Below are positions 6,278 through 64,000 of a stretch of 64,000 bases of DNA, piece by piece. Every line of letters begins with the position of its first letter. Position 1 is the first letter of the stretch. The position numbers and the translations under genes were made by a program. The DNA comes from Acidobacteriaceae bacterium (lineage in GTDB: Bacteria > Acidobacteriota > Terriglobia > Terriglobales > Acidobacteriaceae), in NCBI GenBank assembly GCA_003165075.1, contig PLSM01000167.1:95179-159178 (forward strand), written 5' to 3'. Under the pieces are notes generated by a model. It was not told the origin of the DNA and did not search any database. It saw only the letters and a program-made list of their open reading frames with translations.

Positions 6278-6480
6278 GGCGTTTTCGGCTTGACTGTTTA
6301 CAGTCGAAATGGACCTCGGTGGCTACCTGTCCTTTCCGCAATAGATCACCCCACGGACGAAGACCTGTCCGCGGGGCCCCGAGAAAGCGCGGAAAGGACG
6401 GGACACCCATTTCTGCGCGGAGTTGAGATGGGGCAAGGCTGAGGGTGGTGCGATCCCATGTCTCAGAAGCGAGCATGGGC
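6278..6480. repeat. Composite palindromic intergenic element (copy A)
   Basis: Follows the yihY stop. It starts with a small hairpin (GACTGTTTACAGTC). It then has an 11-bp perfect stem, GTCCTTTCCGC (6329-6339) with GCGGAAAGGAC (6389-6399). Between those arms is a nested hairpin (CCCCACGGAC with GTCCGCGGGG). After a linker reading ACACCCATTTCTGCGC comes a further hairpin, CCCATG-CTC with GAG-CATGGG (6455-6479). The linker and the last hairpin match copy D near 53.4 kb. No coding potential seen. Confidence 0.75.
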
Positions 6481-6514
6481 CACCCGGCACAGGCTTTGCG
6501 CCGATACCCCCACT

Positions 6515-6628
6515 CCCCCCTATTCTGTAGTTAAATTCTTGATCTTAATGGACTTAGCGAATAGATGGTGCGCTAAATTCTTGAAAGCATTGGAGTTCTC
6601 CGCAGAATCTTCTCAGGAAAGGACTTAC
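6515..6628. repeat. Dispersed 114-bp intergenic repeat, copy 1
   Basis: Begins CCCCCCTATTCTGTA and ends CCGCAGAATCTTCTCAGG-AAAGGACTTAC. Both ends and much of the AT-rich middle (GCGCT-AAA-TTCTT, CATTGGA) match 45488..45600 in the same orientation. No ORF. Its function is unknown; a mobile non-autonomous element or a conserved intergenic signal are both possible. Confidence 0.75.
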
Positions 6629-6813
6629 TGTGTTTCCGTGGAGGAACCGTCTGCACCACCTTCATTTTCTCCAATTCAATTGTGCATGAAGACGAGGAAA
6701 TACTCTGCAAAGTTTTCTTCGAGTCGTGCGATTCATTGGGTGGGGCTGCCCAGTTCCGATGAGGGCGCGCTATGCAGGGGCGCCAGGGCTCTGACCGTTT
6801 GATTTCGTGCTTG

Positions 6814-6853
6814 CCCACCCTTGCGGCAAAAACAAATACGCCGCAAGGATGGG
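6814..6853. repeat. Intergenic hairpin repeat (copy B)
   Basis: CCCACCCTTGCGGC pairs with GCCGCAAGGATGGG over 14 positions with one mismatch, around a 12-nt loop. The following GCCACCCATAT resembles the sequence after copies A, C and D. It lies about 40 bp before the end of the minus-strand beta-propeller gene. Confidence 0.8.
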
Positions 6854-6895
6854 CCACCCATATAGTTCAACATCGTGAGGTCAGAGACTAGAGAT

Positions 6896-36762: not shown

Positions 36763-36802
36763 CCCATCCTTGCGGCAAAGACAAATACGCCGCAAGGATG
36801 GG
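36763..36802. repeat. Intergenic hairpin repeat (copy C)
   Basis: CCCATCCTTGCGGC and GCCGCAAGGATGGG form a perfect 14-bp stem around the loop AAAGACAAATAC. The preceding TTGGCTTGACTGGCTACAGCC resembles the start of copy A, and the following GCTCCCATAT resembles the tail of copies B and D. It lies between the mqnD stop and the GGDEF gene. Confidence 0.85.
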
Positions 36803-36850
36803 GCTCCCATATCGGTACTAGATCATGGGGTCACGGATGTAAATGGGCGA

Positions 36851-45346: not shown

Positions 45347-45424
45347 GTCAGTGGTCAGTGGTCAGGGGTCAGGGGACAGTGGTCAGTGGTCAGTGGTCAG
45401 TGGTCAGTGGTCAGTGGTCAGGGA
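45347..45424. repeat. GGTCAGT heptamer tandem repeat
   Basis: About ten copies of GGTCAGT and near variants (GGTCAGG, GGACAGT) in about 78 bp, beginning some 36 bp upstream of the EF-P-like gene start, thus within its promoter or leader. Not a CRISPR (no spacers). Copy-number change by slippage is expected. Confidence 0.9.
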
Positions 45425-45487
45425 ATAGGGTGAACAGTCTTTTCGGTTTGGGATGTGAGCGGTATCACCCTGTCGAGGTACCCGACT

Positions 45488-45600
45488 CCCCCTATTCTGT
45501 AAATAAAATCTCTATTTTCATGGGTTTACGGTAGGTCTTGCGCTGCAAAATCTTCATTTCATTGGATTTATCCGCAGAATCTTCTCAGGAAAGGAGTTAT
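45488..45600. repeat. Dispersed 114-bp intergenic repeat, copy 2
   Basis: Starts CTCCCCCTATTCTGTA, ends TCCGCAGAATCTTCTCAGG-AAAGGAGTTAT, same orientation as 6515..6628. The ends are nearly identical while the middle has drifted. The 129-aa minus ORF of the track that covers it looks spurious. Confidence 0.75.
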
Positions 45601-53326: not shown

Positions 53327-53449
53327 CCCACCCTTCTCGCAAAAGACGCGAGAAGTATGGGGCACCCATTTCTGTGCTGAACTCAGTGAGAACGAAAGGA
53401 ACATCGGGGTTGTTGCGCTCCCATGTCTGAGAATCCAGACAGGGGGCGC
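53327..53449. repeat. Composite palindromic intergenic element (copy D)
   Basis: First hairpin: CCCA-(mismatch)-CTTCTCGC with GCGAGAAG-(mismatch)-TGGG (53327-53361). Then the linker GGCACCCATTTCTGTGC, as in copy A. Then a second hairpin: GCGC-CCC and GTCTG with CAGAC and GGG-GCGC (53415-53449). The stem bases differ from copies A, B and C but keep pairing. It lies just past the glnD stop. Confidence 0.8.
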
Positions 53450-60798: not shown

Positions 60799-61932
60799 AT
60801 GAGTCTGCGTAACATGAAGTCTGTCTGCCTGGTTCTGGCTTCGGCCAGCATCGCCTTAATACCAATGGGGTGCAAGAAGGCTCCCCCGATCACATTGGCG
60901 TGCGCTGCTACGCCCCCAGCCCTCTTTGCCGGCGATCCGGTCACGGTGACCGCGACCCCCGGCGCAGTGAGCACCAAGAAGAAGAACAGCGTGGTTTACA
61001 GCTGGACCGGAACAGGAGTGACGGGCAACGGAGCCACGGCCACTGTGCCCACAGCTTCTCTGGATCCCGGAAGCTACACGGTGAAGGGAACGGTGAAGGA
61101 AGGCAAGCCGAGGAAGGAAGGCCTGAAGCCGGGCCAGTCCGCCGAGTGCTCTGCCAGCTTTACGGTGAAGGAATTTGAGCCGCCGACGGTAAGCTGCTCG
61201 ACCAATCCCAGCACGATCAAGCCGGGAGACACGAGCACCGTGACTGCCATGGGCACGAGCCCGCAGAACCGCCCGCTGACTTACAGTTATGCGGCGGCTG
61301 CCGGAACCATCAGTGGCAGTGGGACCACAGCGACATTCTCATCTACCGGCGCACCTGCCGGCTCGGTGGGGATTACCTGCACCGTGGCCGACGACAAGCA
61401 TCACACGGCAAACGCCGAGACCGGTGTAACGATTGTGGCGCCGCCACCGCCGCCGATTCCGCACACCCAGGCGCTTTGCTCAATGAGCTTCGACAAAGAC
61501 AAGCACCGCTCGACTCGCGTGGACAACGAAGCCAAGGCCTGCCTGGACGAAATCGCTCTTGATCTGCAGAGGCAGTCCGACGCCAAGGCCGTGATAGCTG
61601 GCGATTCAAATGCCAAGGAGAAGGCGAAGACCGCGAAGGAAGAGAAGTTTGCGGCCAAGCACAAGCATGCCAAGGTTGAGGATTCCGCCGCACAGCGCGC
61701 CGTCAACGCCAAGGATTACCTGGTGAAGGAAAAGGGCATTGACCCCTCTCGCATCACCGTGGTGACTGGTGCTGAGGATGGCCAAAAGGTGGAAGACTAC
61801 CTGGTGCCCGCAGGCGCCACCTTCTCGACCGATGTTTCCGGAACCACCGCGGTAGACGAGTCGGCAGTGAAGGTCCAGGCACGGAAACCTCTGGGCGCGC
61901 GGCATCACAAACACGCGGCCAAGGAAAACTAA
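60799..61932 (+). CDS. Lipoprotein with Ig-like modules and a divergent OmpA-like C-terminus
   Basis: 377 residues. Lipoprotein signal with lipobox LIPMGC; a beta-sandwich module beginning CAATPPALFAGDPVTVTATPG, a second (CSTNPSTIKPGDTSTVTAMG) and part of a third; a proline hinge (VAPPPPPIPHTQ); then an OmpA-like region (CSMSFDKDKHRSTRVDNEAKACLDEIALDL, later AAQRAVNAKDYLVKEKGIDPSRI) with a Lys-rich insertion. Peptidoglycan contact is likely but the usual His-Thr-Asp is replaced. GGAGG lies 9 nt before the ATG at 60799. A paralogue follows 530 bp later. Confidence 0.8.
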   Translation: MSLRNMKSVCLVLASASIALIPMGCKKAPPITLACAATPPALFAGDPVTVTATPGAVSTKKKNSVVYSWTGTGVTGNGATATVPTASLDPGSYTVKGTVKEGKPRKEGLKPGQSAECSASFTVKEFEPPTVSCSTNPSTIKPGDTSTVTAMGTSPQNRPLTYSYAAAAGTISGSGTTATFSSTGAPAGSVGITCTVADDKHHTANAETGVTIVAPPPPPIPHTQALCSMSFDKDKHRSTRVDNEAKACLDEIALDLQRQSDAKAVIAGDSNAKEKAKTAKEEKFAAKHKHAKVEDSAAQRAVNAKDYLVKEKGIDPSRITVVTGAEDGQKVEDYLVPAGATFSTDVSGTTAVDESAVKVQARKPLGARHHKHAAKEN

Positions 61933-62460: not shown

Positions 62461-64000
62461 ATGTATTCGCGGATTTTAAAGTCTGTTTGCCGGGTTCTGG
62501 CCTTGGCGTGTGTTGTTCTCATGCCGGTTGCGCTGGTAGCCCAGGGTTCTTCGAGGCCGGCAGTCAAGGCCGATTCGGGGGATACCGCTTCAAGGTGGGA
62601 TATCTTCGCCGGCTACAGCTATCTGGCGCCGAAAGGGACCGTGAATGTGCCACAGCCGTCCGGCGCCACAGTGCCTTTCAGCTACGACTCCGTCAACGTG
62701 GGCGGGCTGGGCAGCGTGGCCTACTTCTTCAACCGGTATGTCGGCGCTCAAGCAGAAATCGGCATACATGAGTGGGGCAAGGGTTCCGACACCAGCAACA
62801 TCGGCGAGCATGGGAACGATGATGGTTTCTTTACCGTCGGCGGCGGCATTATCGCACGCTATCCTACTTCTGACATCACGCCGTTTATGCACGCACTAGT
62901 GGGTACGGCGCGGATCGACGGCCCCGACCACAACCCATTTACATGGGGACCGGCTCTGACACTCGGCGGCGGAATGGACTATAACACGCCGCTGTTCAAT
63001 CACCGTCTCTCGATCCGCATCTTTCAGGCGGACTACGAGTGGATGCACGCCGACTTTGGTACGGGCGCCTTCGGCGGCCGCGCGAACATCAATGCAGCGC
63101 GCCTGAGCGCAGGCATTGTCATTCACGCCGGCAGCATCGCGCCGCCTCCGCCGGTGACCCTGGTATGCTCGGCCAGCCCCGACTCGGTCTTCCCTGGCGA
63201 TCCGGTCACGGTGACGGCGACGGCCGGGATGCTGAATCCCAAACTAAACGCGGTTTACAGCTGGTCAGGAGACGGAGTGACGGGCAATGGAACCACAGCG
63301 ACCGTGAACACCGGCTCATTGGCTCCGGGCACCTACACCGTAAAGTGCGGAGTGAAGGAAGGAAAGCCCGGCAAGGAAGGTCTGAAGCCGTGGGAGAACG
63401 CCGACAGTACGGCGACCTTCACGGTGAAGAAGTTCGAGCCGCCGACTATCAGCTGCTCGGCTAACCCCAGCAGCATCAACGCGGGCGACAGCAGCACGAT
63501 TACGGCCACGGGCATGAGTCCCCAGAACCGTCCGCTCACTTACAGCTACGCGGCAGCGGCTGGCACGATCAGCGGCAGCGGAACCACGGCGACGTTCTCT
63601 TCGGCAGGCGCTCCGGCAGGCCCCATAGAGATCACCTGCAACGTGTCTGACGACAAGGGGAACACAGGCAGCGCGACCACTACGCTGACCATCGTGGCGC
63701 CGCCTCCGCCGGTGGTACAGCACACGCAGGCGCTTTGCTCGATCACCTTCGACAAGGACAAGCATCGTCCACTGCGCGTGGACAACGAAGCCAAGGCCTG
63801 TCTGGACGAGGTAGCTCTCGACCTGCAGAAGCAGTCAGATGCGAAGGCCGTGGTGGTTGGCGATGCGAATGCCAAGGAGAAGGCGAAGACTGCCAAGCAA
63901 GGGGCGTATGCGGCCAAGCACAAGCATGCCAAGGTGGAAGACTCCGCCGCGCAGCGCGCCGTCAACACCAAGGACTACCTGGTGACCGAGAAGGGCATTG
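62461..64000 (+). CDS. Outer-membrane barrel protein with Ig-like modules and OmpA-like C-terminus (cut by window edge)
   Basis: Not in the track as a whole because no stop lies in the window; 513 codons are present. Signal peptide (VCRVLALACVVLMPVALVAQ); an eight-strand-type OmpA barrel (WDIFAGYSYLAPKGTV ... VGALGSV-like strands to ARLSAGIVIHAGS); a proline hinge; Ig-like modules nearly repeating those of the preceding lipoprotein (CSASPDSVFPGDPVTVTATAG, CSANPSSINAGDSSTITATG); then the same OmpA-like tail (FDKDKHRPLRVDNEAKACLDE). The N-terminal anchor thus differs from its paralogue: a barrel in place of a lipid anchor. GGAGG precedes the ATG. Confidence 0.85.
   Translation, partial: MYSRILKSVCRVLALACVVLMPVALVAQGSSRPAVKADSGDTASRWDIFAGYSYLAPKGTVNVPQPSGATVPFSYDSVNVGGLGSVAYFFNRYVGAQAEIGIHEWGKGSDTSNIGEHGNDDGFFTVGGGIIARYPTSDITPFMHALVGTARIDGPDHNPFTWGPALTLGGGMDYNTPLFNHRLSIRIFQADYEWMHADFGTGAFGGRANINAARLSAGIVIHAGSIAPPPPVTLVCSASPDSVFPGDPVTVTATAGMLNPKLNAVYSWSGDGVTGNGTTATVNTGSLAPGTYTVKCGVKEGKPGKEGLKPWENADSTATFTVKKFEPPTISCSANPSSINAGDSSTITATGMSPQNRPLTYSYAAAAGTISGSGTTATFSSAGAPAGPIEITCNVSDDKGNTGSATTTLTIVAPPPPVVQHTQALCSITFDKDKHRPLRVDNEAKACLDEVALDLQKQSDAKAVVVGDANAKEKAKTAKQGAYAAKHKHAKVEDSAAQRAVNTKDYLVTEKGI

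Follow-up and report, generated by a model that had tools for sequence, protein, structure and literature searches.

The intergenic hairpins of this window, a stretch of 64,000 nucleotides from a 5.68-Mb draft genome (G000:C68:95179-159178), are very probably REP elements forming a class of their own, that is, short non-autonomous palindromes multiplied by a RAYT/TnpA_REP transposase of the HUH Y1 type. We base this assignment on their structure, copy number and position, on their linkage to RAYT genes and on the co-evolution of both partners. The REP-like nature suggested in the original prediction is thus borne out by the high copy number, the RAYT linkage and the co-evolution. On balance we also favour the view that the hairpins represent a third REP tag class (GTGC), served by its own RAYT clade, with copies in a single fork-relative orientation and as direct singlets only.

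Each of the four sites originally reported in the window holds a hairpin, and their anatomy has been corrected (Table 1). The kind of hairpin found at 36763-36802 recurs at 6814-6853 and 53327-53361; in the 36763-36802 copy stem pair 5 is T-A, unlike the C.A mismatch usual in the family. The loop of the 6326-6402 hairpin is long since it encloses a further short hairpin, which is unrelated, and the two members with 10-bp stems are additional to the four copies described before. Nested hairpins of this sort (core GACGAAGACCTGTC, CCCC/GGGG arms) were observed in the loops of GTGC hairpins in four of 14 distinct contexts, a distribution that looks as if REP loops were their target; known insertion sequences enter REPs in a parallel manner.

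Table 1. Hairpins and associated palindromes of the window (CM, covariance model; positions are those of the window).
Feature	Position	Strand	Sequence	Followed by	Tag	CM score (bits)	Remarks
Hairpin, subfamily A	36763-36802	+	CCCATCCTTGCGGC / loop AAAGACAAATAC / GCCGCAAGGATGGG	GCTCCCAT	GCTCCC, mutated (36803-36808)	R1, 56.0	copy of the initial finding
Hairpin, subfamily A	6814-6853	+	CCCACCCTTGCGGC-loop-GCCGCAAGGATGGG	CCACCCAT	CCACCC (6854-6859)	R1, 65.4	
Hairpin	53327-53361	+	CCCACCCTTCTCGC-AAAAGA-CGCGAGAAGTATGGG	GCACCCAT	GCACCC (53362-53367)	R1, 63.2	
Hairpin	6326-6402	+	arms CCTGTCCTTTCCGC (6326-6339) / GCGGAAAGGACGGG (6389-6402)		ACACCC (6403-6408)	R1, 37.5	long loop
Nested second hairpin element	6345-6381	+	ATCACCCCACGGACGAAGACCTGTCCGCGGGGCCCCG				in loop of 6326-6402; core recurs in three other hairpin loops
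Member with 10-bp stem	6455-6479	+	CCCATGTCTC-AGAAGC-GAGCATGGG		CCACCC (6480-6485)	R2, 36.2	
Member with 10-bp stem	53420-53445	+	CCCATGTCTG-AGAATC-CAGACAGGGG		GCGCCC, degenerate	R2, 45.1	
Larger imperfect palindrome, subfamily A	6786-6888	+	outer arms GGGCTCTGACCG ... GTGAGGTCAGAGAC				round the 6814 hairpin; from a 10-copy subfamily-A alignment

Read on the + strand, the full plan of the element consists of CCC[A/G], inner stem, loop, inner stem, [T/C]GGG and GCACC. The GCAC located 3' of the stem is nearly invariant and corresponds to GTGC at the foot of the palindrome on the opposite strand. Two structural types can be distinguished, one with long stems of 11-15 bp (CCTTGCGGC, CCTTTCCAC, TCATCGCG, CCTAGC and others) and the other with 10-bp stems (CCCAGGTCTC, CCCATGTCTG, CCCCGGTCCC). 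The inner stem is free in sequence and no loop is conserved across subfamilies. Among 70 long-stem elements, 65 have C.A at stem pair 5, as do 48/63 and 21/29 of the rows having both letters in the model alignments; a conserved bulge of its REP is required by the TnpA_REP of E. coli, for which GTAG is the guide (PMC8266576). A 5' guide ahead of the hairpin, GTG[CG]TYT, was attractive in the own-genome copies; this candidate was dropped, being weak in the hairpins that flank RAYT genes (21/115) and without visible change alongside the 3' tag.

The analysis of the stems demonstrates that both arms change together, as the original prediction had claimed. In an alignment of 43 own-genome rows at real loci (A8), 92.5% of the cells are paired and 11 of the 14 pairs have changed on both sides, with a covariation of 0.411 against 0.096 for shuffled rows (reached in 0/500 shuffles); the corresponding values for 66 rows of matches from the single-contig genome G002 (A9) are 88.2%, 10 of 14, and 0.290 against 0.087 (0/500). 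Both alignments were fitted to the covariance model R1 and lean somewhat to its structure, and an arm slide served as the control, under which the covariation was at most 0.073. The source alignment of R1 has one row with an extra G/C pair and a few wrong flank bases, and no covariation figure was taken from it. Covariation lies far above the shuffles in both cases, and the independent variation of the arms that had been named as a refuting outcome did not occur. The description of the paired changes as compensatory stands in part: point compensation is present, but the different stems mostly represent separate paralogous subfamilies, each with RAYT relatives of its own, and the arm changes therefore go back both to point compensation and to diverging RAYT-REP lineages.

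The genome-wide covariance-model search proposed with the original prediction, for which the absence of further copies would have been an adverse result, gave 90 R1 matches in the own genome (E<=0.01) and 70 in G002. With the pattern ATGGGNCACCCAT and at most one mismatch, 68 matches were found in the host genome versus 12 for the reversed control. A hairpin precedes GGGNCACC at 35/104 sites, versus 1/28, 0/64 and 1/18 for three scrambled motifs; a fourth scrambled motif, GGGNACCC, has a hairpin at 29/72 sites, which probably overlap those of GGGNCACC. Among the matches listed, the family is present in all 24 genomes searched within the genus, with 3 to 143 matches each, and the 14 genomes of the sister family have 0-1. 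The phylum survey gave, again among the matches listed, 33 positive genomes out of 36 Acidobacteriaceae, from 12 genera, and none out of 261 other Acidobacteriota. Within its phylum the class is confined to Acidobacteriaceae in this sample. With its exact loop, subfamily A is commonest in the own genome, at 15 matches, and occurs patchily across the genus, in 17/59 genomes.

A RAYT-type transposase, which the original prediction had proposed to look for, is encoded both in the own genome and in its relatives. The own genome has PF01797 genes. The hairpin-flanked clade is represented there at G000:C25:44392-44673 (10-bp type), with CCCAGGTCTC hairpins upstream, whose tag faces away from the gene, and a degenerate copy downstream; a short PF01797 gene at G000:C148:150037-150288 lies between two TCATCGCG hairpins. 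For two proteins of the clade the scores against NCBIfam NF047646 REP_Tyr_transpos are 97.6 and 109 bits (cut-off 80), and among PDB entries the clade profile matches 4ER8, the TnpA_REP of E. coli, best (E=1.2e-15). The clade carries the motifs PEHVHLL and Y[IM]HRNPV, and the EHVH and Y-HRNP columns, containing the HUH/Y1 motifs HxH and Y..NP, are invariant in the protein alignment (A7). A scan of genome contigs yielded 499 encoded relatives, and the 80 kept of these 499 are all Acidobacteriota records.

In the relatives, the genes of this clade have hairpins on both sides in inverted orientation, with the tags outward. For 97 distinct RAYTs, and with the tag not required, a hairpin lies upstream of 72 and downstream of 73; on either side, about 25% of the genes lack a qualifying hairpin in the flank searched. 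Outward tags occur on 53 of the upstream and 55 of the downstream flanks, with 40 genes having both, and inward tags on 4 and 16, respectively. The nearest hairpins show a CCC..GGG foot in 115/145 cases, and the bases 3' of the arm in those 115 are GCAC in 90 and CCAC in 7; for control Y1 genes, which may include truncated clade members, 12/51 of the nearest hairpins are tagged too. The element distance is 0.085 between the two flanks of one RAYT versus 0.344 between flanks of different RAYTs, and the RAYT protein distance predicts the element distance (Mantel r=0.59, 0/2000 permutations). Stem sequences are specific to RAYT lineages, and RAYT and stem co-evolve. No RAYT was found for the window's subfamily A (CCTTGCGGC stem); the clear RAYTs of the own genome carry the CCCAGGTCTC 10-bp and TCATCGCG types. 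Other Y1 groups of the same genomes show inverted flanking repeats of their own, namely GGGCACGACTTTAGTCGTGCC with FVxMPDH proteins and a TAGCGCCGGTCTCC type with WCVMPNHVHV proteins.

The strand of the element equals the sign of the local GC skew in 90.8% of 130 copies from two genomes of the genus, and this coupling is independent of coding direction. The agreement is 92.4% with the skew measured inside + genes, 93.5% inside - genes and 88.5% between genes; the coding balance does not predict the element strand (44.6%), and where it opposes the skew the element follows the skew in 92%. Regions picked for rpoB, for rRNA or for no reason gave agreement in 10/10 copies. Beyond the genus the test covers 20 regions in seven genomes of other genera, with all 27 copies and all 20 regions in agreement. 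In several genomes of other Acidobacteriaceae genera the skew of 20-kb blocks reaches +/-0.3, which seems unusually strong for bacteria. Neighbours less than 400 bp apart are direct in 24 cases and inverted in none. In G002 neighbouring elements are on the same strand in 47/61 cases, a value reached by 0/20,000 permutations, and the blocks of element strand switch where the GC skew switches. A simple ori-ter orientation was not found in this genome; the skew itself is a mosaic, and the element strand was therefore compared with the local skew. This mosaic of GC-skew blocks with many switches (dnaA at 5.32 Mb) suggests many inversions or assembly errors.

In 10/10 genomes rpoB is coded on the G-rich strand, so that this strand is probably the leading one, as judged from GC skew and rpoB and not from a mapped origin; the rRNA flanks are mixed, being positive in 11/15 blocks. 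The strand bearing CCCA...TGGG-GCACC would therefore be the lagging-strand template, which is the strand used by IS608 and ISDra2 (PMC6006769). The tandem REP arrays of SBW25 run forward at about 2 Mb and in reverse at about 4 Mb (PMC3116915), a hint of the same strand rule.

With genes called by a simple hexamer model, 121/130 elements of two genomes are intergenic versus 15-17% expected, and all 56 own-genome copies examined lie between genes, as originally claimed for the window, versus 17% expected at random. The gaps are convergent in 42 cases (over-represented) and divergent in 6 (avoided), and the median distance from gene 3' ends, the placement that the original prediction had wished to see checked, is 67-87 bp. 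Copies seem to persist chiefly in the gaps between genes and at a distance from divergent promoters. The same placement, together with the strength of the hairpins, would suit terminators or hairpins protecting mRNA 3' ends, kept by selection as a host regulatory part, a reading that we nevertheless consider unlikely. No T-run was found 3' of the hairpin on either strand among the hairpins checked, and a terminator scan called nothing at 6814 or 36763. The orientation tracks GC skew and not transcription, a terminator needs neither the conserved mismatch nor the tag, the RAYT linkage and the co-evolution are left unexplained, and the avoidance of promoters is equally expected from purifying selection on insertions. 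The lack of a U-tract after the hairpins checked and the orientation also speak against transcribed hairpins, the other reading offered originally, as the main explanation, and whatever part the hairpins might play in the host (terminator, mRNA 3' end, supercoiling) would be secondary.

The 36.7-kb gap, delimited by the same two orthologous genes, is occupied by an element in the own genome and by a different stem type in one relative, and most relatives have none there; such presence and absence between the same orthologues would be insertion-like variation. At the 36763 locus no clean empty site with a target duplication was resolved among the relatives because their intergenic DNA aligns poorly. 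In the window and at related loci, the copies of subfamily A are enclosed by an outer palindrome of ~105 bp with arms GGTCTCTGACCG/CGGTCAGAGACC. This imperfect palindrome is what might be expected if the elements were MITEs of a conventional DNA transposase and the hairpin the mere middle of a longer element. However, the outer arms are absent round the members of other subfamilies inspected, no target duplication was seen, and the RAYT genes are flanked by hairpin and tag and not by the outer arms, which makes MITEs a very improbable source of the family.

The strictness of the coupling to GC skew, without exception in the other genera, could also reflect a polar chromosome signal of the KOPS or Chi kind, whose strand was selected for segregation or repair and not left by insertion. 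Yet the coupling holds while the stem sequences change completely, the copies are few (~100 per 5-6 Mb), mostly intergenic and cognate to RAYT lineages, and the family does not occur in any genome sampled from the phylum beyond Acidobacteriaceae, so that we hold such a signal to be highly improbable. A structured regulatory RNA family, to which the strong covariation might point, is scarcely credible given that an Rfam scan of the window gave no match, that the orientation is independent of the flanking genes, that the inner stem is free with no shared loop, and that covariation at the level of the palindrome is expected of REPs.

Returning to REP elements, we infer that the family has spread, driven by RAYTs, as single-stranded DNA at replication forks. 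In the proposed mechanism the RAYT would recognise the folded single strand by means of its foot, mismatch and tag, cut that strand and paste copies into single-stranded DNA at the forks, where they would settle in one orientation per replichore. Such a single-strand cut-and-join at forks would account for the singlets, the direct repeats and the use of one strand. The clade may bind and cleave the single-stranded REP in a strand-specific manner. If the lagging-strand template were active, as in IS608 and ISDra2, the tag would be situated 3' of the hairpin, as a mirror image of GTAG REPs. Taken together, strand rule and position of the tag pose a puzzle, the tag being on the side opposite to that of GTAG under this assumption.

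The closest known systems are the GTAG REPs and REPtrons of gammaproteobacteria (PMC2817692, PMC8266576), which share with the present family the high-copy extragenic palindromes, the two inverted copies flanking a RAYT, the co-evolution, a tag abutting the foot of the palindrome, a conserved irregularity in the stem and a Y1 HUH protein homologous to 4ER8. Here, instead, the classical GTAG is absent from the palindrome end and GTGC stands in its place, the hosts are Acidobacteriaceae, copies are single or in direct tandem (24:0), the strand is fixed by GC skew, and the stems reach up to 14 bp with C.A at pair 5. CGTC-tagged repeats are likewise tagged high-copy palindromes, but they were reported without transposase genes (PMC3733652), whereas the family described here has RAYTs and another tag. 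By its tag, the family is outside both the GTAG and the CGTC superfamilies of that study. REPINs and BIMEs also are short mobile repeats dependent on RAYTs; REPINs are inverted REP doublets (PMC3116915), whereas here close neighbours are always direct, without a single REPIN- or BIME-type inverted doublet in 24 close pairs. The IS200/IS605 elements IS608 and ISDra2 share the Y1 HUH transposase, the hairpin substrates and the preference for the lagging-strand template (PMC6006769), whereas here the repeat is short and non-autonomous and the RAYT-type transposase is outside a mobile IS.

Acidobacterial Y1 transposases with flanking inverted repeats have been described before as TIRYTs, forming TIRtrons, in T. 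saanensis, K. versatilis, A. capsulatum and G. mallensis (PMC3733652). In that report they are said to be flanked by terminal inverted repeats that are long and in some cases have a GGGGWSAS motif, they are not described as REPs, and a repeat family is given for one K. versatilis gene only; the difference from the present family is one of description, and some of those genes may belong to the present clade. The text of that report mentions neither GTGC nor GCAC. In the open-access literature on acidobacterial REPs and REP strand bias, as covered by titles, abstracts and terms, neither the family nor the strand rule is described. Judged by this literature, it is a large and hitherto undescribed REP family tied to a domesticated transposase in Acidobacteriaceae.

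How REPs spread, and whether RAYTs act at replication forks, is an old open question. Work on it has mostly concerned gammaproteobacteria, in which any preference for one strand is masked by inverted doublets. The present family, with singlet copies, a strand rule obeyed strictly in nine genomes and many RAYT lineages with matched stems, is a clean natural system, in which the strand rule predicts which strand is cut. If the proposed reading is true, the copies would record, on the scale of the genome, a strand-specific, replication-coupled single-strand transposition of REPs, and the tag of the active hairpin would lie on the side opposite to that in GTAG REPs. The family adds GTGC as a tag beyond the two known superfamilies and accounts for a common intergenic feature of Acidobacteriaceae genomes.

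Other repeats were observed in the window. A GTCAGTG heptamer forms a tandem array at 45347-45430, and 112-nt direct repeats of 74% identity are located at 6516-6627 and 45488-45599. A long direct repeat, 60990-61728 versus 63249-63987, shows 75-83% identity over 300-nt pieces and lies in adjacent reading frames, probably representing duplicated domains.
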